From: Thermoplasmata archaeon
Lineage (GTDB): Archaea > Thermoplasmatota > Thermoplasmata > Thermoplasmatales > Thermoplasmataceae
Direction: 5' to 3'
DNA length: 64,000 nt
Assembly (NCBI GenBank): GCA_021794355.1
Contig: JAJYRA010000084.1
Coordinates: forward strand, 59,038 to 123,037
Under the pieces are notes generated by a model that made no database searches, had not been told where the DNA came from, and saw nothing but the letters and a program-made list of their open reading frames with translations. How positions within the stretch are numbered: position 1 is the first letter of the stretch; each line of letters starts with the position of its first letter. Position numbers and translations under genes: made by a program. Shown here one piece after another: positions 19,407 through 31,200 of this stretch.

Positions 19407-20003
19407 ATGGCAATTAAATTAAGGAAAAGTGAGGATGACAAACAGTTTGAGACGAGGAGTAAAATCAGAAATTATAAGTCGCAATTGGATAGAGGCTTAA
19501 AAAAACAGCAGCAGCTAATGGCACAAGCAATTAATAATATTAAAAAGGCAGCAGCAATAAAGGATAAAAAGGGCATGTTAAACGCAGCTCAAAATGCAGT
19601 AAGAATTAAAAGTTCTGTTGAATATCTTAAAAGTTTCTTACTCTATCTTGACAATCTTGAAATAACCTTTGAGTTTGTATATAACGAGAGAAGGAACAGC
19701 GAAATCCTTATGGGTGCCAATAAGGAACTGAATAAAAGAATGCTTTCGGAAGAACAGGCAAGGCAGATCGAAAACAACATTCAGGCCATAAACCAGAAAA
19801 CGGAGGATCTGGAAAGAAGATTGGAAGATCAATTCGGAAATATCAATCAGAGCCTGGATGAGTTTGCCGCCAGGGGTGGAGAAAATGTGGATGAAGTCCT
19901 AGGAAGTGTGGTCGGCAACAAAAGCGAATCAAATTCCGAACAATCAAACAGTGAAATTGAGAATCTCATAAGTAAGATAATGGGTGAAGACACAAAGTCA
20001 TGA
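19407..20003 (+). CDS. ESCRT-III/Snf7-like (CdvB-like) protein
   Basis: 198 aa, basic helical N-terminus, long hairpin (AQAINNIKKAAAIKDKKGMLNAAQNAVRIKSSVEYLKSFLLYLDNLEITFEFVYNERRNSEILMGANKELNKRM), acidic C-terminus ending in a MIM1-like amphipathic helix SEIENLISKIMGE. Confidence 0.6.
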   Translation: MAIKLRKSEDDKQFETRSKIRNYKSQLDRGLKKQQQLMAQAINNIKKAAAIKDKKGMLNAAQNAVRIKSSVEYLKSFLLYLDNLEITFEFVYNERRNSEILMGANKELNKRMLSEEQARQIENNIQAINQKTEDLERRLEDQFGNINQSLDEFAARGGENVDEVLGSVVGNKSESNSEQSNSEIENLISKIMGEDTKS

Positions 20004-20006
20004 TTT

Positions 20007-22403
20007 TTAAAGTGTCAGTAGCCATCCAAAAAATATTTTAAAAGCTCTGTTTATTTCAGGTTCAAATGGAATCCTTAATATTCCTTCAATTTCTTGTGTT
20101 TCTGGCTTAATCTCATTTGATTTTGTCGTTTTTATCTTTATGATTGGTCGTATAAATATTGTACCAGAACTTAGATGAGAACTGATTATTTTCCTAGTTT
20201 CAGGCAAAATCATTACTGCATCCTTCGGGTTCTGACCTTCTAGATCAATGGAGCTATAGGGAAAATTGAACAAAACAAAGCAAAATTTTGGTTCTGGTAA
20301 ACCTTTCTTCCTGTTGTTCAGAATATTCTGGAGTATTCTTGCCACGTTGGCATCATATTCAGGAATGTTGGAGTATAAACTGTGATCTATGAAAACTGCA
20401 TAAGCCTTGCCGTTGCTCAGTTGTGTTCTTTTATACTCCCCCTCACCATGGAGCTTTTTTCCAGGCCAGTCTATAATTCTAAGATTACTGAACATGTTAC
20501 CATTTTTCTGTTTCATTTCTATAGAAATTACATTATTCTTGTCTTTTATTGATTTTTCAGGAAATTCTCCCATTACAACTATACTATGCATTAAATTTTC
20601 CATCGTTTCTATGCCTTCCCTAATATCCCATGTGTAATTGGTCTGTTCAGTTATGGAATCCAGAAAATTGAGAAAGAAAGAAAGAAATGTGGTTTTTCCG
20701 GAATTTTCAGGACCAACTAAATTGAGAGTGCTGAAGTTTTGGCTATCCACAAGATATTCCTCCCCATATTGATTTGTGCCTCTTGAAATCATTCTTTCTT
20801 CATAGCGCTTGTATGCAACCGTGGATTGCTCGTTCATAATATCAATCCTGATGGGGGTGGCAATCAGTGAGGCTACAAGTGATAGGATCAATATAGAAAA
20901 TAGGCTCATATAAAAATCCAGGGAATTTGTGTTCAGGATATTTCTATCCCTAAGGATCATATAACCTGTTAGAAACAGTGCTATAAATCCAGTCATCATT
21001 CCGCCTTTCCTTGTTCCAGGAGAGATAAAACCAGAAATGACGTACGAAACGACTAATAAAAATGTTAACAGAACAATGAAGATTAGAACGGAAATGAGGT
21101 TAATGTTCAAGGAGTTGCTGAAAACCAGTGTATCGCGGATAAAAACATTTCCAATCAGGGGAACTTTTCCATTTATGAAGATGAATAGTAAAATCACCAG
21201 GAACGATAAAAGTCCGGCTGATAGGAAGTTTAGAACTTCGTTCTTGATCTTTGAAAGCAACCCCTTTGAAAATACATAAGTGGTGGATACGTATAAAATA
21301 ATTATGGAACCCATTAGAATAAACTGCCTTAGTATTAGCAGGAAAAGTAAGTAATAAATGAGGTAGGGGAGTGAAAAAATAATACCCTGAATCCCAACAT
21401 TTAAAAAATTGAAGTTGTAAATGGAATAGATGACTGTAACAATTACGATAAGAATGGAAAAACCATTCAGGAATTTTTTACTTCCAGTGGCAGCGGTGTG
21501 CATTCCGAACTTTGAAGTTAAACCAATAATCAACGTAAGAAGTGGGATCAATAAAAGGAGATCAATGATGAATGATGAAAAACTTGTAAAGGATATGAGA
21601 TGGAAATTCCCCTCCTCTGATAGTGCAATTGATAAAATTATCATAACTGCTGCCGGACCTGAAGCATTTATCAGGAATGTGGGGTCTTTTTCTCTTACCT
21701 TGAATCGAAGTTGGTATCCCAGAGAAAGAAATAACAGCATTGAGACTGGAATCAGAACATAAAAGATTGAAGTGTATGAATAGGGAAGAACAGAATAGAA
21801 AATTTGAGATGAAAGGGTTATGAAAATTATTGACACATAAAATACTGCCGCGTATGGAACACGTATCCTTTTGTCCAAATCTATGAACTTACCCTGCAAA
21901 AATGAAAGAAATATGGAATTACTCATTCCATAATAGGCTAGTGCCATAAGGATAAGAAAGAATAAAAATGTGGTGCCCTGTGAAGTGGAGTGTCCGGACA
22001 AACTATTTGATAAAACAAGGAATATCTTCAGGAAAAGGAATATAAAAATAATTATGGCGGGCCTGATCGCTGATCTGTATAGTATCTGGGAGCTTTCATC
22101 TTTTCCTTTTCTAAAATCCGTTTCCCTAATTCTGGAATATAATCTGGATTTTAAGAAAGTGATAATAAATAGGAAGAAAAAAACCTTGGAGTATGAAGGA
22201 ATGCCAATGTGCGAATCGATTCCAAATAGGGTTTCAATGGAACCTAAGGAGGAGAAGTTAAGGCTTACACCCTTAGAGTTGATGAACAGAAGAGATGTTA
22301 GAAAAAACAAAAGGAAAAATATGGGAAAAAGAACCGTGTTTAAAATAAATAGGGCGTTGAAATTCGTTTTTTGTATCCTTGAATCCGCCCCTGGATTGAT
22401 CAA
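20007..22403 (-). CDS. Polytopic membrane protein with C-terminal P-loop GTPase-like domain
   Basis: About 14 hydrophobic segments, then NLVGPENSGKTTFLSFFLNFLDS (Walker A) and IIDWPGKKL (DxPG). Confidence 0.75.
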   Translation of the reverse strand: MINPGADSRIQKTNFNALFILNTVLFPIFFLLFFLTSLLFINSKGVSLNFSSLGSIETLFGIDSHIGIPSYSKVFFFLFIITFLKSRLYSRIRETDFRKGKDESSQILYRSAIRPAIIIFIFLFLKIFLVLSNSLSGHSTSQGTTFLFFLILMALAYYGMSNSIFLSFLQGKFIDLDKRIRVPYAAVFYVSIIFITLSSQIFYSVLPYSYTSIFYVLIPVSMLLFLSLGYQLRFKVREKDPTFLINASGPAAVMIILSIALSEEGNFHLISFTSFSSFIIDLLLLIPLLTLIIGLTSKFGMHTAATGSKKFLNGFSILIVIVTVIYSIYNFNFLNVGIQGIIFSLPYLIYYLLFLLILRQFILMGSIIILYVSTTYVFSKGLLSKIKNEVLNFLSAGLLSFLVILLFIFINGKVPLIGNVFIRDTLVFSNSLNINLISVLIFIVLLTFLLVVSYVISGFISPGTRKGGMMTGFIALFLTGYMILRDRNILNTNSLDFYMSLFSILILSLVASLIATPIRIDIMNEQSTVAYKRYEERMISRGTNQYGEEYLVDSQNFSTLNLVGPENSGKTTFLSFFLNFLDSITEQTNYTWDIREGIETMENLMHSIVVMGEFPEKSIKDKNNVISIEMKQKNGNMFSNLRIIDWPGKKLHGEGEYKRTQLSNGKAYAVFIDHSLYSNIPEYDANVARILQNILNNRKKGLPEPKFCFVLFNFPYSSIDLEGQNPKDAVMILPETRKIISSHLSSGTIFIRPIIKIKTTKSNEIKPETQEIEGILRIPFEPEINRAFKIFFGWLLTL

Positions 22404-22404
22404 A

Positions 22405-23838
22405 TTATAACCTGTGTTTTATGTTTTCAGCTATTTCAATAACCGATTCCATTTCCACCTTAGTTATTTTTTCCGTACCCTTGAGAGAGAAATTTACGGA
22501 GAGTGCAGATAAGCGATTTTCCATATTCTCATCCCCCTTCACGTAATTTTTTAACTCTTCCAGTGCATTGACCACCTTTCTGACATCCATTGTCTGTATG
22601 TCCTTAATAAGCATATCCACATTGTTTTCTCTTCTGCTTGACCCCAAATTCTTATCTTCAACCTTTGGTGTTTCACCTGTTGTGTTATTGGATTGCACCG
22701 AGGGTGGAGCTGCTTCTACTTTACTAAACTTTCGTTCAAACATTCCATCCACCTGCAACTCACCCCTCCACTGATCGGAGGCTTCAAGCAGAACTGTTCC
22801 TCTTAAGTGTCCGCTCCCTTCGGGTATTAATCGGGTCTCCATTTCCTGATAATCATTAATTTTTAGGTTGGATAGGGAAATTATGGGTTGACCAATAAGA
22901 TCAAAGGCACCCATCAGACCGTTCAGGTTAATTCTTAAGGTACTCATATCAACTATGGGTCTTATCTTGAATATGATGGAAAATTCCTCACCTTCCCTCA
23001 TTGTTCCCGAGAGAGAATATGATACGGACCTCGTTACGTAATTAGAAGGTTCCTTTGTTGAATCAATTATGGAGAATATGGTATCCCTCACCATATCATT
23101 TAGATATGCAAAATTCCCGTTGTGCTTGAACTTTATCATATAATCAGGAACTTCCAGCTCAGAAAGGTTAATTTTTTCTTCATTGTTTGCGTATTTAATC
23201 AGGTCATTTATTACATTTAAATCCTTCACCCTGGAACACATCAATACCACAAGTCCCTTTATTTGTGAATTAGATGAAGATAGAAGCTCCAATAATTGCT
23301 TTTCATATTTCTTAAATATGGACTTTCTATAAACGCAGGATTCCAGAAGAAATATACCGGATGTTACAGATAGATCTGATGAAGCAGATCCCATGTTATT
23401 AACTGCTTCCTCAGCGTACATTTCAAGGTCATCCTTCCAGTTTTTCTTGATATATCGACTCAGTTCCAGAAATCCTTTAGATTTATCCTGTTCATTTTCA
23501 GAATTCAGGAGTAATTTAATGGATTCCAGCTTCTGATCTCTCTTTTTTTCATCGGCCTCATTCTCAAATTTTTTAAGTGTATTTTCAAAGTACGTTAGAT
23601 TCTTCTTATCGACTTTCTTTGTTTCCAACACCCCTCTCATGGAGATTATGAGATTTGAGAGTAAATTATCCTGATATGGATTCAAGAGGGTCGATTCGAC
23701 AAGTGTTCTTATGTATTTTATACTGTTCTTTTCAACGGGAGTAATATCACTTCTTTTTTCAATTCTTTTGCACTCTTTAAACAGCTTTTTAGCAACTTCT
23801 ATTTTTGACTTTATATTGTTATCCTTCAACATCCACAT
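22405..23838 (-). CDS. HEAT-like helical repeat + beta-rich domain protein
   Basis: Helical repeats, then beta-rich segment and C-terminal helical region; packed between GTPase-locus genes. Confidence 0.5.
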   Translation of the reverse strand: MWMLKDNNIKSKIEVAKKLFKECKRIEKRSDITPVEKNSIKYIRTLVESTLLNPYQDNLLSNLIISMRGVLETKKVDKKNLTYFENTLKKFENEADEKKRDQKLESIKLLLNSENEQDKSKGFLELSRYIKKNWKDDLEMYAEEAVNNMGSASSDLSVTSGIFLLESCVYRKSIFKKYEKQLLELLSSSNSQIKGLVVLMCSRVKDLNVINDLIKYANNEEKINLSELEVPDYMIKFKHNGNFAYLNDMVRDTIFSIIDSTKEPSNYVTRSVSYSLSGTMREGEEFSIIFKIRPIVDMSTLRINLNGLMGAFDLIGQPIISLSNLKINDYQEMETRLIPEGSGHLRGTVLLEASDQWRGELQVDGMFERKFSKVEAAPPSVQSNNTTGETPKVEDKNLGSSRRENNVDMLIKDIQTMDVRKVVNALEELKNYVKGDENMENRLSALSVNFSLKGTEKITKVEMESVIEIAENIKHRL

Positions 23839-25509
23839 TCACCTCAGATGGAATCTTTTCCTGGAATTTGCTTCATCTTCATCCGGGCCTATCAACTTAT
23901 TGAGTATATCATCCAGGTCTGGTGGTAGCAGAATTTTCTTTTTCTTGATTCTTTTCTGAACCTGCATCAAAAGATAATACATTTTTTTCTGATCGAAAGC
24001 TTCATTATTTTCACCTATGAGGTGCAGAATGTTTTTTAATGAATCCAGATCATCGAATTTGTTCTCCGTAAGTGCTATGTCGAACATATCGAAAAGGTCC
24101 TTCCTTGCAAGTTCAAAGTCCTTTAGGATAGCCAGGCTACGAGAAAGTTTAATATAATCTGGATTTGTGGTCATGATAACTTTTGCCCAGGCTTTATAAA
24201 TGGAGGGAATAGCTGTGAAGATGCTTTTCCCCATATTTATGTTAGAATCTTCTTTCAAGAGTTCCCTGACAATTATATCATTAATCTTAACGGGATTTAC
24301 CGAACTGGCAGATTTGAGAAATTGAATCAGATTTCTTCCCCCGACCGAATGGGGATCAGATTTAATTAAAACAGGAATTAATCTCATCAACCTTTCATCA
24401 GAATCAGACCTACCTCTCAAGTCATCCAGATCCTTTTCCATGTAGTCGATCGCCGTATCTATGAGATCATCCCGGTATCCACTCTTCACAACGATGTCAT
24501 CTATAATATTATAATACTCGTCCCTTGTTCCGTAAGTGCCCATCTCTGCAACTTTAAATGCAGTGCTTATTGCCTGTGAAGGCTCGGCGTTCTTACATAT
24601 GGATTTAATTATTTTTGATATAAGGTAGTTTGATATCTTGGATCTATTTCCCATTGAAGGTACATCATATGCATTGCTGAACTCGTAGATTTTACCCGTT
24701 TCTATAAGCCTTAAATATTCATTTGAAACGGTTCTGATCAAGCTGTCTTCTCCGGGCAATATCACTTTTTTCAAAATGGGGTTGATCAATACCTGAGAGT
24801 TATTTTCAACTTTTGGCATGGTTCCCACCATATCAAAAATTAATTCATCTGATGGAGGAGTATAATCATAAGTTGAATATGTGAATACAATCCATGGTGG
24901 GAAAAGACTTTCGAGCGTGGAAATCTGTTTGAACATGGATATAAAATCTGGTGAAATAACTCCAACCTTGATCTCGTTCTGGAAGATGTTCAAGAATAAC
25001 CCATAAACTACATCCCGAGAGTATTCCTTGTTTGCCTGCGCCAGTAAATCTTCCCCATAGGATTCATCCTTAACATCGATTTCTATGTTAACAGTGGGTA
25101 AATCCATAAAATTTCCATTGGGTAACTTTAACTTGTCCAGATCCTTAACTGACGTTATTCCTTTCAGATGGTGCCTGTCCAGTTCTTCCAGATTTTTTCT
25201 TGCTCCAACGAAGTTGTTTTGGTCCAGTATAAGAAAGTGGCTATATAAAGCACCTTCTCTGCCATGAACATCCTTTCCTATATTTTTTACAAAATTCATT
25301 GCTACTTTCCCGGATGGTAAAAGCATAAGTCGCCTTCCTTCCTTAAACTTCAGGTTGTCCATCCCAAAGGGAAGGCTGTGCTTTTCAAGAAATCTAAAAT
25401 CATCCTCCACAAGGGCTGAACTACTGGAGATAAATTGAAAACCAGATTTTCCCCTGTTTTCTGCCCACCCGTAGAGGACCTGGTCAGCCGATACACTGTT
25501 TACGGTCAC
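23839..25509 (-). CDS. GTPase-associated protein 1 (GAP1-N like)
   Basis: N-terminus ADQVLYGWAENRGKSGFQFISSSSAL...DVHGREGALYSHFLILDQNNF resembles GAP1-N; 4-bp overlap with the GTPase gene. Confidence 0.6.
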   Translation of the reverse strand: MTVNSVSADQVLYGWAENRGKSGFQFISSSSALVEDDFRFLEKHSLPFGMDNLKFKEGRRLMLLPSGKVAMNFVKNIGKDVHGREGALYSHFLILDQNNFVGARKNLEELDRHHLKGITSVKDLDKLKLPNGNFMDLPTVNIEIDVKDESYGEDLLAQANKEYSRDVVYGLFLNIFQNEIKVGVISPDFISMFKQISTLESLFPPWIVFTYSTYDYTPPSDELIFDMVGTMPKVENNSQVLINPILKKVILPGEDSLIRTVSNEYLRLIETGKIYEFSNAYDVPSMGNRSKISNYLISKIIKSICKNAEPSQAISTAFKVAEMGTYGTRDEYYNIIDDIVVKSGYRDDLIDTAIDYMEKDLDDLRGRSDSDERLMRLIPVLIKSDPHSVGGRNLIQFLKSASSVNPVKINDIIVRELLKEDSNINMGKSIFTAIPSIYKAWAKVIMTTNPDYIKLSRSLAILKDFELARKDLFDMFDIALTENKFDDLDSLKNILHLIGENNEAFDQKKMYYLLMQVQKRIKKKKILLPPDLDDILNKLIGPDEDEANSRKRFHLR

Positions 25510-27170
25510 AGTTCTCCAACCTCCCCGATCCAGTTTGCAATAAATATAAATCCTGAATTTACCTCTGGGTCAAATCTGATTTCATACATACCACCTACAC
25601 CCACATCCAACTTCGGTACAATTTCTCCGGTCTGGTCTCTTTCCGTTTTAATATATATTTTAAAGGCGGATGGATTCTTTATATTTTTTGAAACGTATGC
25701 GTAAGTATTCCTGAGTAACTTTAGGAGGTCTATGGCAGAATATTTAAAAACGGCATCTGGCAGTGTGTCGGTTTTTGTGAATAGAAAAGCTATATTTGGT
25801 TTTGATTTTCTATCAAACCTGGCATTCAGTATGGTTTCTATTATCCTTCTATATTGTAAATCTCTGGTTGCCCACTCCCTATAACTGGAGCAATCAATCA
25901 TCACCAGATATCCCTTGGCTTTCAAAAGATACTCAAACCTTGTATTCGTCAACATTCTTCTAACATTTTCTGGTCCACCCTGAAGACTGTTAAAGGTTTC
26001 CCCTGCTATATCGTTAATTCTCAGAAATATTTTATTTGAACCGAACCTTTTTCTTTTTGTGAATTGAAATATGACCTCACCGACCCTGTCCTTTGCCGTC
26101 AACTCCGGAAACTTGTGTTCTGTGAATATCCTGTTAATGTATTCTTCCATCAGCTCTATTCCGTTAACCACATCTGCTTCAACATTTATGGCCTCCTCGA
26201 TATCCCTCAGGAAATGGAAGAAATAAGCCAGAAAGGTTGTTTTACCCGCAGCTGGAGGGCCGATTATGGCTATGGCATCCCTTTGATCATATTTGGTTTC
26301 AACCTTTAGATTTTGCCTGTAAACTGGTGCATTGTTCTGGTTTTCCTGCGGTGCCTTTACCTCATTGCCTGAGGGTTTCTCACTCTTCTTGAATTCTGGT
26401 TTATATCCCTCGTTGTCCGATGAAACAGCCGTCATAACTGGCCCTTCTTGCTGAGGAATATTGCCTATACCTTTGTTATTTTTTACGAAATTCATTCTTC
26501 TTTCCCTCGATGAATAATAATTTACTATAAACAGGAGGGCTATTAAAATTTCTGTAAATCCGATTAATAATATAAAATTATTCGTTGAAAAATTATCTGG
26601 AATGAGTAACATTTCTATAAACGCTAATAGTGAGAATGTCCCTATTATTCCTGCGCTTACTATTATTTTTGGTGTTGATATGGAAACAAGAGTGGCGATT
26701 TCTAGGGTGAAGTAGATCGGATACCAAAATAGCTTCATATCATTAATATAAAAAAAGGAGGTGGGAAAGGCATTTTTTGGAAATATTGCTATGGACATTA
26801 ATGTGCTGATAAACATCCCCAGACCTGTAAGACTACTGATTACAATAAACCTTCTGGAAGGCTTTGAAAGGCCATAATTTATTGCATCTGTTACCCTTTT
26901 TAGTTTTCCTACCTCGGAGGCACTCATAAACATAAAAATAAATCCGATATAGGGTATTATGGATAAAATAATATAAAGCCCAGTTTTAAGCGTACCTGAG
27001 GAGAGGTTCCTGTAATAAATTTCTGACGAGACGACAATCCTCTGATTGGACTCAATAGCACTCTTTCTGTTTCCCGTGTACCAGATTAGAAGAATAAATG
27101 ATGATACTAGAGTCATGAAAAATATTGATGTCTCGGCCCCAATGCCGTTGAAAGGAGGACTGAATATCAT
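25506..27170 (-). CDS. Membrane-anchored GTPase (DO-GTPase-like)
   Basis: 6-7 N-terminal TM segments, then AIIGPPAAGKTTFLAYFFHFLRD (G1), INDIAGETF (G3), FLFTKTDTLPD (G4). Confidence 0.75.
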   Translation of the reverse strand: MIFSPPFNGIGAETSIFFMTLVSSFILLIWYTGNRKSAIESNQRIVVSSEIYYRNLSSGTLKTGLYIILSIIPYIGFIFMFMSASEVGKLKRVTDAINYGLSKPSRRFIVISSLTGLGMFISTLMSIAIFPKNAFPTSFFYINDMKLFWYPIYFTLEIATLVSISTPKIIVSAGIIGTFSLLAFIEMLLIPDNFSTNNFILLIGFTEILIALLFIVNYYSSRERRMNFVKNNKGIGNIPQQEGPVMTAVSSDNEGYKPEFKKSEKPSGNEVKAPQENQNNAPVYRQNLKVETKYDQRDAIAIIGPPAAGKTTFLAYFFHFLRDIEEAINVEADVVNGIELMEEYINRIFTEHKFPELTAKDRVGEVIFQFTKRKRFGSNKIFLRINDIAGETFNSLQGGPENVRRMLTNTRFEYLLKAKGYLVMIDCSSYREWATRDLQYRRIIETILNARFDRKSKPNIAFLFTKTDTLPDAVFKYSAIDLLKLLRNTYAYVSKNIKNPSAFKIYIKTERDQTGEIVPKLDVGVGGMYEIRFDPEVNSGFIFIANWIGEVGEL

Positions 27171-27275
27171 TCTATACCCTTTATTTCAATTTCACGATTT
27201 AATACCATGCCAAACTAACCCTATTTTATTTATTTACATATATCCTCAATGATTATAAGATTTGAATGAACCGAT

Positions 27276-29138
27276 CTATTTTTTCTTGAATACTTCCTCA
27301 TCCTGGATCTTTGACTGAATTCCTGAATTTTCCTTCTCCATTATTTTCCATACATAAATGACATCCTTGAGGCTGCAGTCAGTAATTCTTGATATGGACT
27401 TTAATCTGGCAACACCCGAAATCTTAAGTTCATCCAAGGTTTCCTTCCTTATCTTTTCAATTTTGTCTTTGCTGGGGGCCTGGTCTTTTGCCATGAGTAT
27501 ATCCCTTATTTCAGTGGCCTGGGCATTGTTTTCATCCCAATAAACGGTCCCATCCCTCATGTCTCTCAAAATAATAAGAAAATTTTTGCTTTCAATACCT
27601 GAATTAGAAATATTTCTGATCTGGTTTATTACACTTTCTTCAAACCCGTTGGGTGACCCGATGACCCCTATGACAAAAGAACCTTCATTGTTTGAGTTCT
27701 CGATTAATATTCCTAAAATTCTAGCGAGATCCTCGTTGTTAAAAGGGTGTTGATCAATACCCAGTTTTATATTTTTATCAGATCTAAAAAGGGCCGATTC
27801 ATGGATATTGAAAATGAAAGCAAGACTTATCCTAACGTCACTTCTAAGAAATCTCTTTTTAATATATCTGTAAACAACACCACGACTTCTCAATGGGAAA
27901 TTATCAGATGTCACAAATTCTGGCATCTCAGTAACATAATATTTGTTCATGATATCCTTAATCTTCACCTTTCCTTCAAAATCCATTCTTGGATTTGATA
28001 ATTTTATGGACTTTTCATCGTTTAACAATGAATCTGCCGATTCAAAAAACGAAACCTCCCTGATTCTGGCCTCCTCCTCTGTGCATGAAAAAGAGGGATC
28101 CACGATTCCTGTTCCTCCCCTACTGGATTGGACTATTAACTGCTTCATTGTGTTGATGGTGGTTATCTGTGACTCTATTTCCTCTTCCAGTTTGGAATTA
28201 GCCTCCCGTATGAGATTATCGATTCTCTTGCTTTCAATTTGTTTTAGTTCCGGGTTGCCGCTTATGTCTGGGTCTGAATTTAACCTTCCTTTTTCATTTT
28301 CAAGCTCCATTATTTTATTTTTCATTTTGGACTGAAAATCCTTCAGCTCTCTAAGAGGGGAATCTATATCTACCGCACTTAATCTTTTAAGATCCTTGTT
28401 CCTCAACAATGTGATTGCTTCTGATACTCTGTTGTAAATATCAGTCATTTCATTGCCTGAAATCAGATCTCCCAGTTCCTTCTCTATCTTTCCCCTTCTA
28501 TTTTCAAGGTCCAGAGCCATTTTCATAACTCTTTCATAATTGTTAAATAACTTCTTAATTTGACCCGGATCGATTTGGATGAATGAAATAACTCCCTCCG
28601 TGATTTTTTGAAATCTTGTCCTGTACTTTTCCTCCATTGCTTGGGATATCTCACCTCTCACATTCTTACCTGAGAGGATATCAATTGTATTGAGAAAATT
28701 ATCCATATTTTCATTATACCATTCCTTGATTAATCTATATATCTGATCGTCCCTATTTATCAAAAGCGTTCTTATGGAATCACTATTCATTGAATCTATT
28801 CTTGAAAAATGTTCCAATTTCTCTACGGACTCATATTCATCCTCTGAAAATTTTCTGATGAATTGCTCGATCTCCTGGTCGTTAAAACTTTTACTCTCCA
28901 TATCTTTCTTAAATGATAGTGAAATTTTCAATTGTGCCAGTTTTATGTTAGCAAGCGCACTTTTTGCCATTTCCATTCCGATCTTTTCAGCACATCGGGT
29001 GCTTATGGTACTGTAATAAGAATCTAAATCCCTCATTAATCTCTTCCTGCTGCTTGAGTCCATCGTTGTTATATCCCTGTAATCCTTTCCAGCTTCCTGA
29101 AGGGCTCTCCTGAAAATTGTAATGCATTCACTTTCCAT
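27276..29138 (-). CDS. Large coiled-coil protein with C-terminal alpha/beta domain
   Basis: 620 aa, long heptad-rich region, then alpha/beta region (FVIGVIGSPNGFEESVINQIRNISNSGIESKNFLIILRDMRDG). Confidence 0.55.
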   Translation of the reverse strand: MESECITIFRRALQEAGKDYRDITTMDSSSRKRLMRDLDSYYSTISTRCAEKIGMEMAKSALANIKLAQLKISLSFKKDMESKSFNDQEIEQFIRKFSEDEYESVEKLEHFSRIDSMNSDSIRTLLINRDDQIYRLIKEWYNENMDNFLNTIDILSGKNVRGEISQAMEEKYRTRFQKITEGVISFIQIDPGQIKKLFNNYERVMKMALDLENRRGKIEKELGDLISGNEMTDIYNRVSEAITLLRNKDLKRLSAVDIDSPLRELKDFQSKMKNKIMELENEKGRLNSDPDISGNPELKQIESKRIDNLIREANSKLEEEIESQITTINTMKQLIVQSSRGGTGIVDPSFSCTEEEARIREVSFFESADSLLNDEKSIKLSNPRMDFEGKVKIKDIMNKYYVTEMPEFVTSDNFPLRSRGVVYRYIKKRFLRSDVRISLAFIFNIHESALFRSDKNIKLGIDQHPFNNEDLARILGILIENSNNEGSFVIGVIGSPNGFEESVINQIRNISNSGIESKNFLIILRDMRDGTVYWDENNAQATEIRDILMAKDQAPSKDKIEKIRKETLDELKISGVARLKSISRITDCSLKDVIYVWKIMEKENSGIQSKIQDEEVFKKK

Positions 29139-29242
29139 ACCAATACCAATAATTGAATGCTTACCCCCTTATATGAGTTTCTACTTTCATTGTAGAATAC
29201 ATTTATTTAATGGACAAAGTATTAACATAGGGAGAAAAGAAA

Positions 29243-30091
29243 ATGAGTCTTGAGATATTGAGTAAAATTGAAGGTGTGGAAAGAAGGTCTGATCTTGGTG
29301 TTACCTATATTGTATCTCATTTAAGAGGACAATCCATTATTGATGATGATGCGGTTGAAACTCTTTTTTCATATTTAAGATCTGTTCTGAACCATTATGG
29401 GTCGACAAATGGTAACCACAGAGATGATTTACTAATTCTTAAGGGAAAGTGGCCCTTCTCTTCGTACTTCCTGGATTGTTGTGTGGACTTAAAAAGCCAT
29501 TGTGAATATAATACCGCCTCCTTTGGTACCATTGGAGGTTCCTTTTCCCTACTGTATTTAAGCGGTCAAAAAAGATATGTCTCAACAAATTCTCTTCTTT
29601 TGTCCATCACTCTTCCAGAATTGCTAAGGGATTTTAATTCCACGATTATATCCAGAACCCTGGGTTTTATTCCTGAAATTAATGACCCTCAAACCACTCC
29701 AATTCGTGATATACTGAAGAATTATGCTTCTGATAAGGTTCTGGATTTTAAATTGATAAATATGCTTAATACTGACAGGATATACAGGGCCTACCTGGAA
29801 ACAAATTTTGTAAAAATATCTAAGTTAGCCGGTCGAGATCTCAGGATGGATAAAGTGATGGATATAAATTCCAATTATCCATATTATAAGCTCCAGGATA
29901 GCCCTGCGTTGGAAAAAAATATTGAGGATTCAATCAAGGAGATAAATTCACTTATGGACCAGGAATATTTAAGACAGAGAATTTCTGAAAATAATTACAG
30001 TAATAATTCAGTATCCATATTTTCAAGCAGGAATGAGTTTGCCATGACCATTGATGAAGAAGGGCATGTTGATAAAATCACAATGGGATGA
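29243..30091 (+). CDS. Divergent ClpP/SDH-class (crotonase-fold) protein, probably catalytically degenerate
   Basis: IIDDDAVETLFSYLR...DDLLILKGKWPFSSYFLDCCVDLKSHCEYNTASFGTIGGSFSLLYLSGQKRYVSTNSLLLSITLP follows the ClpP/SDH layout. Confidence 0.45.
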   Translation: MSLEILSKIEGVERRSDLGVTYIVSHLRGQSIIDDDAVETLFSYLRSVLNHYGSTNGNHRDDLLILKGKWPFSSYFLDCCVDLKSHCEYNTASFGTIGGSFSLLYLSGQKRYVSTNSLLLSITLPELLRDFNSTIISRTLGFIPEINDPQTTPIRDILKNYASDKVLDFKLINMLNTDRIYRAYLETNFVKISKLAGRDLRMDKVMDINSNYPYYKLQDSPALEKNIEDSIKEINSLMDQEYLRQRISENNYSNNSVSIFSSRNEFAMTIDEEGHVDKITMG

Positions 30092-30105
30092 AAAGAGTGA
30101 TCTAA

Positions 30106-31200
30106 TTGGAACAGAATGAGTTAAAAAAAATACTTGAAGCTGGGCTTAAAGCAGAGTATAATGGGAATAAAAAGGAAGCCAGAATGCTATACGGGAAGGC
30201 AATTGAAATATTGAAAAACGAGTTATATACAGACAATATGATAAAAAAGGAAAAGATTCAAAGACAGATAAATTCTCTGAGTAACGCAATGGAAAGGCTT
30301 ATGGATACCCATAAGGAAAATGAGGATGGGAATTCGGCTATAGAAATATTAGAAGAAATGGGACTTTCCCTTGAAAATGGAACAGGTCCATCCATGGATG
30401 ATGTTGCTGGCATGAAGGAGGTGAAGGAGGAGATGTATACACAGATTATTTACCCCCTTAAGTTCCCTGATCTTGCTGAGGAATTTAACATTAAATTTGG
30501 TGGGGGGATTCTCCTATATGGTCCCCCAGGTAACGGAAAGACCTTTCTTGTGCGGGCTCTTGCAAGGGAAGCAAGAATGAATTTTATTTATGTGAATCCT
30601 TCGAGCTTATTCAGTCAATGGTTTGGAAATTTTGAGAAGAACATTTCTAAACTTTTCAAAGCTTCTAAATCCCTATCCCCTTGTATAATCTTTTTTGATG
30701 AACTTGATAGTCTATTCCCATCAAGAGATCAGGTGAACAGTGATGCTGCAAAAAGAGGAGTCTCGCAATTTCTAAATGAAATAGGGGGGTTTTCATCTGG
30801 GGGTTCCATTCATCCTGTGGTAATTCTTGGGGCAACAAATGTGCCATGGCAGCTTGATCCCGCAGTCACAAGACCGGGAAGGTTCGACAGGATGATCTAT
30901 ATTCCTCCGCCAGATCTGGAGGCCAGAAAGTTGATCATTAAGCATTATCTGGATAAAATAAAAAGAAAGAGCGAGATTGATATTGACAAAATAGCAATTT
31001 TAACAGATAGATATAGCGCAGCAGACCTAGAGTATTTGTGTAAATTTACAACCCAAAAGGCATTTTTAAGGGCTGTGGAAGGGAGAAAGGATGAATTGAT
31101 ATCCAATGATTCTTTTTCAGAAGCCCTTAAGGAAATAAAGCCCTCCGTTAATAAGAAAGTCCTGGAAAGGTATGAAAAATACAAGCTTGGTAAAGAATAA
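30106..31200 (+). CDS. MIT-domain AAA ATPase (Vps4/CdvC-like)
   Basis: N-terminal three-helix MIT-like segment (ILEAGLKAEYNGNKKEARMLYGKAIEILKNEL...), DVAGMKEVKEEMYTQIIYPLKFPDL, GPPGNGKTFLVRALA, CIIFFDELDSLFPSR, RPGRFDRMIYIPPPD. Confidence 0.85.
   Translation: MEQNELKKILEAGLKAEYNGNKKEARMLYGKAIEILKNELYTDNMIKKEKIQRQINSLSNAMERLMDTHKENEDGNSAIEILEEMGLSLENGTGPSMDDVAGMKEVKEEMYTQIIYPLKFPDLAEEFNIKFGGGILLYGPPGNGKTFLVRALAREARMNFIYVNPSSLFSQWFGNFEKNISKLFKASKSLSPCIIFFDELDSLFPSRDQVNSDAAKRGVSQFLNEIGGFSSGGSIHPVVILGATNVPWQLDPAVTRPGRFDRMIYIPPPDLEARKLIIKHYLDKIKRKSEIDIDKIAILTDRYSAADLEYLCKFTTQKAFLRAVEGRKDELISNDSFSEALKEIKPSVNKKVLERYEKYKLGKE

Follow-up and report, generated by a model that had tools for sequence, protein, structure and literature searches.

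An archaeal ESCRT-III/Vps4 locus linked to a DO-GTPase/GAP1 module in the order Thermoplasmatales

The endosomal sorting complex required for transport (ESCRT) of Thermoplasmata is described as minimal in PMC10936438, i.e. as Vps4, ESCRT-III and the arCOG07400 beta-barrel protein. Here we analyse a 64,000-nucleotide stretch (the window) of contig JAJYRA010000084.1, which belongs to a 2.05 Mb Thermoplasmatales assembly (GCA_021794355.1). Between positions 19407 and 31200 it carries a block of eight predicted open reading frames (ORFs) that encode an ESCRT-III protein and a Vps4-type ATPase together with a membrane DO-GTPase, a GAP1-like protein, a HEAT-repeat protein and a coiled-coil protein. 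Genes for the GTPase, the GAP1-like protein and the coiled-coil protein keep together with ESCRT genes in related genomes of acid-loving archaea, namely Cuniculiplasma and its relatives. We consider it probable (about 0.6) that the block is an ESCRT system for remodelling or repairing membranes into which a G-protein switch is built. The individual components are known, and what is new is that ESCRT is combined with DO-GTPase/GAP1, in the sense that this is not described in the main texts searched. Specifically, GAP1 is not mentioned in the main text of PMC10936438 and the word GTPase occurs there twice, the one passage shown being about FtsZ; the word ESCRT is absent from the text of PMC7159879, which deals with DO-GTPase/GAP1-N2 conflict systems.

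Linkage of the GTPase module to ESCRT genes

The GTPase gene is present in 13 of 101 order-level genomes. All 13 have a Snf7-type gene (detected in G065 and G073 by iterated profile only), and Vps4 is found at the locus in 11 of them, the loci of G078 and G091 being cut by contig ends. In 11 genomes the five core genes, i.e. GTPase, GAP1, coiled-coil, Snf7 and Vps4, are contained in a single region that does not exceed 20 kb, while in G078 and G091 core parts are located on contig fragments that fit the same arrangement. Whole-genome profile searches recovered GAP1 and the coiled-coil protein in the same 5 of 297 Thermoplasmatota genomes, a count that leaves out one further GAP1 match (5.8e-4), which is short and C-terminal. 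A profile search for the GTPase found it in 6 of 394 genomes, all among the 13 ESCRT-linked ones, and the scan of the whole collection with the GTPase alignment gave at least 2 loci. No sampled genome has the module away from ESCRT. The GTPase occurs only at ESCRT loci of one family, except for a degenerate paralogue within the block itself and one fusion to the transcription factor TFB. Weak matches that read as ABC transporters were rejected as GTPases, namely the one in G068 and first-pass matches beside some ESCRT loci.

The linkage is kept through five gene arrangements (window-like, L056, L059, L069 and L070), with flanking synteny nearly all lost. In L057 and L059, 7 of the 8 block ORFs are matched as compared to 0 of the 46 other ORFs of the window; in L056, L069 and L070 the latter number is 0–1 of 46. 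Over these five loci the number of matched block ORFs ranges from 4 to 7 out of 8, the block counts being overstated by one as both GTPase paralogues match the same gene. The first-pass annotation, made from the window alone, had taken the neighbours to belong together. Both the joint occurrence of GTPase, GAP1 and the coiled-coil protein at ESCRT genes (297–394 Thermoplasmatota genomes) and the survival of the linkage through rearrangement agree with this. Moreover, there appear to be two different pairs of ESCRT paralogues that accompany the module: in quick trees, in which several forks are open, Snf7 and Vps4 of the module in G065 and G073 group with the paralogous pair that lies beside the module in other genomes.

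In 12 other members of the family, Vps4 and ESCRT-III are accompanied by a small protein of ~140–155 aa adjoining Vps4, which judging from position and size is probably the arCOG07400 barrel. Profile search detected this protein in 0 of 13 GTPase-bearing genomes and in 12 of 12 minimal-ESCRT genomes, the genomes of this comparison being chosen rather than random and sharing ancestry. Both systems are represented in genus g13, though not in the same genome. GTPase-bearing and minimal ESCRT are two mutually exclusive versions and not a loose association, and the GTPase module belongs to certain lineages and does not accompany ESCRT universally. According to the first-pass annotation, an ESCRT pair consistently found without the GTPase genes would speak against one machine; this is partly the case, in that the pair occurs in sister lineages as the alternative version with the small protein. 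The block resembles the minimal system in being of the same order, in having homologous Vps4 and ESCRT-III proteins and in the Vps4 tree, where the window group is placed near the minimal-type clade. It differs by the additional DO-GTPase, GAP1, coiled-coil and HEAT proteins, and the small Vps4-adjacent protein is missing from the window genome as from all the other GTPase-bearing ones.

Proteins and gene order of the block

According to the ORF calls, five genes of the block are on the minus strand and three on the plus strand. The minus-strand run reads coiled-coil protein, DO-GTPase, GAP1, HEAT protein and degenerate GTPase. The ESCRT-III gene converges on the 3' end of this run with a gap of 3 bp (20004–20006), and beyond its start, across 104 bp (29139–29242), lies a divergent operon that encodes a 282-aa protein and Vps4. 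The GTPase and GAP1 genes overlap by 4 bp (25506–25509), the HEAT and GAP1 genes abut (0 bp), the degenerate paralogue and the HEAT gene are 1 bp apart and the 282-aa ORF and Vps4 are 14 bp apart. All eight ORF coordinates, the overlap, and the convergent and divergent gaps of the first-pass annotation proved exact. In an alignment of the window with two relatives the divergent region is strongly conserved and contains two conserved AT-rich boxes, which makes it a candidate shared promoter region of the GTPase and Vps4 operons. This conservation is seen although the adjoining 282-aa protein diverges fast.

The Snf7/CdvB-type ESCRT-III protein (19407–20003, plus strand, 198 aa) matches PF03357 only weakly when searched alone (E 0.044). 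We assign it to ESCRT-III because its family matches: PF03357 recognizes 17 of 24 family members (best 1.2e-11), and the family profile finds Vps24 (3.7e-7) and CHMP3 (2.8e-5) in the PDB nearly over the full length, with weak matches to CdvB structures. It is 87% identical to same-genus copies. The C-terminus has a conserved LxxK[I] helix, which we take to resemble the MIM1 motif and which is a plausible ligand of the MIT domain. The ATPase gene (30106–31200, plus strand, 364 aa) encodes a Vps4/CdvC-type protein matching NCBIfam CdvC NF041006 (6.4e-68, residues 7–359) and PF00004 (2.3e-38), as well as, weakly, Vps4_C PF09336 (0.0012). Its MIT domain is below threshold (PF04212, 0.011) and above the cut-off in one relative; across the phylum the MIT family scan was too unspecific for mapping Vps4. 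The features by which archaeal ESCRT is recognized are therefore present, i.e. a Snf7 protein and an MIT-AAA Vps4 encoded nearby. The Snf7 fold and the MIT-AAA Vps4 type, both proposed from the letters of the window, are borne out, the former at the family level and the latter with weak MIT and Vps4_C matches.

The membrane DO-GTPase (25506–27170, minus strand, 554 aa) matches DO-GTPase2 PF19993 with 1.6e-11, above the gathering cut-off, and so do 13 of 13 homologues. Five N-terminal hydrophobic segments are followed by a GTPase domain with GPPxxGKT, NDxxGE and TKxD motifs; hydrophobic segments precede the domain in all ESCRT-linked GTPase copies, and the G1, NDxxGE and TKxD-type positions are conserved. 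D387, G390 and E391 are invariant, so that the Walker B glutamate within DxxGE that marks DO-GTPases is present. Its paralogue (20007–22403, minus strand, 798 aa), recognized from motif loss and a tree, is restricted to three close genomes, has ~14 hydrophobic segments and evolves fast (~47% identity to same-genus copies). The P-loop is kept. Since the G3 glutamate and the G4 TKxD are lost in all three genomes, this protein is probably not a working GTPase. Consequently, of the two membrane GTPases claimed initially the one at 25506 stands and the other is a paralogue without G3 glutamate and G4. Regarding the adjoining GAP1-like gene (23839–25509, minus strand, 556 aa), the protein alone reaches 0.03 with the N-terminal GAP1-N2 domain (PF20013) and 12 of 12 homologues match it, best 2.3e-7, in line with the initial assignment.

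The HEAT-like nature of the next protein (22405–23838, minus strand, 477 aa) is confirmed by HEAT_2 matches in 9 of 11 homologues (best 1.4e-5) and by a match to alphaRep (2.3e-7). Crude secondary-structure propensity gives HEAT repeats, a beta-rich middle and a helical tail; the profile of the beta region had no significant match in the PDB. For the coiled-coil protein, a putative scaffold (27276–29138, minus strand, 620 aa) co-occurring with GAP1 and the GTPase, the AlphaFold2 model is of low-to-medium confidence (mean predicted local distance difference test, pLDDT, 58). The model agrees with the coiled-coil prediction; from the N-terminus on, it is made up of a helical domain, a long coiled coil, an alpha/beta domain and, at the C-terminus, a helical (winged-helix-like) tail. 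A fold search with the model gave no match below 0.001, profiles of the whole protein and of its C-terminus had no significant PDB match, and helix-turn-helix matches in the C-terminus are weak and scattered.

The 282-aa protein just upstream of Vps4 (29243–30091, plus strand), of unassigned fold, is the least conserved part, with 30% identity to same-genus copies. It is homologous to a 275–277-aa protein at the same position in other relatives (hhalign 1.3e-4). A ClpP/SDH-like pattern, as claimed in the first-pass annotation, looks possible by eye. No profile, PDB or structure test backs this fold: Pfam and the PDB gave no match, the hhalign comparison with two SDH-like proteins is not significant, and the structure model (pLDDT 36) is useless.

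A proposed G-protein switch for ESCRT and alternative explanations

ESCRT-III, Vps4, GTPase, GAP1-N and HEAT families, GTPase motifs, hydrophobic segments and genetic linkage are all found with the tools used. An ESCRT system with a G-protein switch might work as follows. The membrane-anchored DO-GTPase (25506) and its GAP1-N2 partner (23839) would detect a signal from the membrane or from a protein and respond by a change of nucleotide state, which the coiled-coil (27276) and HEAT (22405) proteins, acting as adaptors, would relay to the filament formed by ESCRT-III (19407). This filament would deform or seal the membrane, and the MIT-AAA ATPase (30106) would disassemble it via the conserved C-terminal helix of ESCRT-III. 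The cellular task would then lie in forming vesicles, in sorting or in repairing membranes, and not in the main cell division. According to PMC10936438, genes for a membrane kinase and a phosphatase are frequent in main-clade ESCRT loci, and it is tempting to suppose that the GTPase/GAP1 pair takes the place of that switch. The block and the main-clade euryarchaeal ESCRT (arCOG09748, arCOG08177) are alike in having a membrane-anchored signalling switch in the locus, and the coiled-coil protein, compared by description only, resembles arCOG09748 in its predicted architecture (helical, coiled coil, globular, winged-helix-like); they differ in the kind of the switch. A more far-reaching version, in which ESCRT assembly is under the control of its own membrane G-protein switch (DO-GTPase with GAP1) and uses an adaptin-like HEAT and beta-domain adaptor, as an independent archaeal analogue of the small-GTPase-controlled coat/ESCRT recruitment of eukaryotes, is rather doubtful.

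Several points weigh against a G-protein-switched ESCRT. Matches to Snf7, Vps4 and the GTPase served to pick the loci, which means that these three are ascertained and that only GAP1, the coiled-coil protein and the HEAT protein bear unbiased witness; most of this bias is removed by searching whole genomes for GAP1 and the coiled-coil protein. The GTPase-bearing genomes all belong to a single family of archaea, and part of the linkage could be due to inheritance. As the Snf7 gene converges on the GTPase operon, the two do not form one transcript, and ESCRT works without the module in sister lineages. GAP1-M and GAP1-C were not matched in the 23839 protein and its homologues at E up to 0.5. Finally, we infer all physical interactions, the direction of control and the cellular task.

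If the neighbourhood were coincidental, unrelated ESCRT and GTPase/GAP1 operons would be held together by shared descent only. The restriction to one family, the convergent and divergent orientations and the occurrence of ESCRT alone elsewhere would fit this. We regard it as very improbable in view of the linkage through five arrangements with flanking synteny nearly gone, the two ESCRT paralogue pairs seen in quick trees, the lack of any sampled genome with the module away from ESCRT and the divergent region conserved in three genomes. It is also unlikely, to a lesser degree, that the block is a cell-division apparatus similar to CdvABC. Such a role was suggested for the minimal ESCRT of FtsZ-less species (PMC10936438), the best match of Vps4 is CdvC, the Snf7 family weakly matches CdvB structures, and the block has CdvB-like and CdvC-like proteins in common with the division system of Thermoproteota. 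The block differs from that system in the presence of FtsZ, which is found in every GTPase-bearing genome, usually in two or three copies. The FtsZ-less ESCRT members tested (G010, G031, G034 and G061) have the minimal system without the GTPase. This speaks against a role of the block as the main divisome.

The first-pass annotation also considered a defence machine. In such an anti-viral or conflict system the DO-GTPase/GAP1 pair would be sensor and switch, as put forward for bacterial GAP1-N2 systems, and ESCRT the membrane effector that kills or seals. PMC7159879, where DO-GTPase and GAP1-N2 are defined from predicted conflict systems, mentions Cuniculiplasma among the archaea that have systems of these kinds. 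The block shares with these systems the DO-GTPase2-type domain, the N-terminal membrane segments, the adjoining GAP1-N2 gene and, as is sometimes the case there, two GTPase paralogues; moreover, two of its parts evolve fast (30% and ~47% versus 87% for Snf7). Against this, no SLATT, peptidase, nuclease effector or FNIII protein was detected in the eight block proteins, and the block differs from conflict systems in having no detected GAP1-M/C and in containing ESCRT-III, Vps4, coiled-coil and HEAT proteins. PADLOC gives generic AAA matches only (IetA 7.6e-37, weaker than CdvC), the core is constant across genomes, and no GTPase relatives were found on plasmids or phages. Defence is not supported by these data and we consider it improbable, about to the same extent as division. 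Thus the idea of one machine keeps the conserved linkage of ESCRT-III/Vps4 with DO-GTPase/GAP1; defence, two working GTPases and the ClpP fold find no support here.

A G-protein-switched ESCRT would have several implications. Recruitment and timing of archaeal ESCRT are largely open questions, and a conserved GTPase/GAP1 partner would offer a concrete switch. If true, it would place in membrane remodelling a DO-GTPase/GAP1 pair hitherto predicted mainly for conflict systems, and ESCRT of Thermoplasmata would be more than the published minimal version. Cuniculiplasma, listed in PMC10936438 among the minimal-system genomes, carries the elaborate ESCRT. DO-GTPase genes are also found in some pspFABC operons (PMC11237479), and PspA belongs to the ESCRT-III superfamily (PMC8281802), which hints at a wider GTPase/ESCRT-III partnership. 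Similarly to our block, a DO-GTPase gene adjoins there a gene of the ESCRT-III superfamily, in a membrane-stress context; the difference is that those operons are gammaproteobacterial, that PspA is not Snf7 and that Vps4 is not described there.

Further loci with ESCRT or GTPase genes

In G065 (contig C67, L088:9610-11328, minus strand) a complete TFB and a soluble DO-GTPase domain are joined in a single ORF of 572 aa. The TFB part has a zinc ribbon and TFIIB repeats (PF00382, 3.7e-22), and the ESCRT-GTPase block of this genome is on the same contig. Near minimal ESCRT loci there is a further AAA ATPase of 411–419 aa (L076:5420-6655 and L077:4042-5301), which forms a long separate branch in the Vps4 tree. 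A second ESCRT-III/Vps4 pair lies directly beside the ESCRT-GTPase block at L054:295-4729 and L055:82-4535, and after it come the genes for an ABC-transporter ATPase and for two membrane proteins. Another second ESCRT operon, which includes a further Vps4 paralogue and additional proteins of coiled-coil-like type (~198 and ~220 aa), is present at L056:5064-9291 and L057:11153-14156 and in L083 and L085. Profile comparison revealed no link of components a and b of these neighbouring second operons to Snf7; the 198-aa family has relatives also in L059, L069 and L070. In the last two loci a protein of 165–171 aa without Pfam match is encoded between the coiled-coil and ESCRT-III genes (L069:15280-15777 and L070:6234-6749), and this might be the published arCOG08177.

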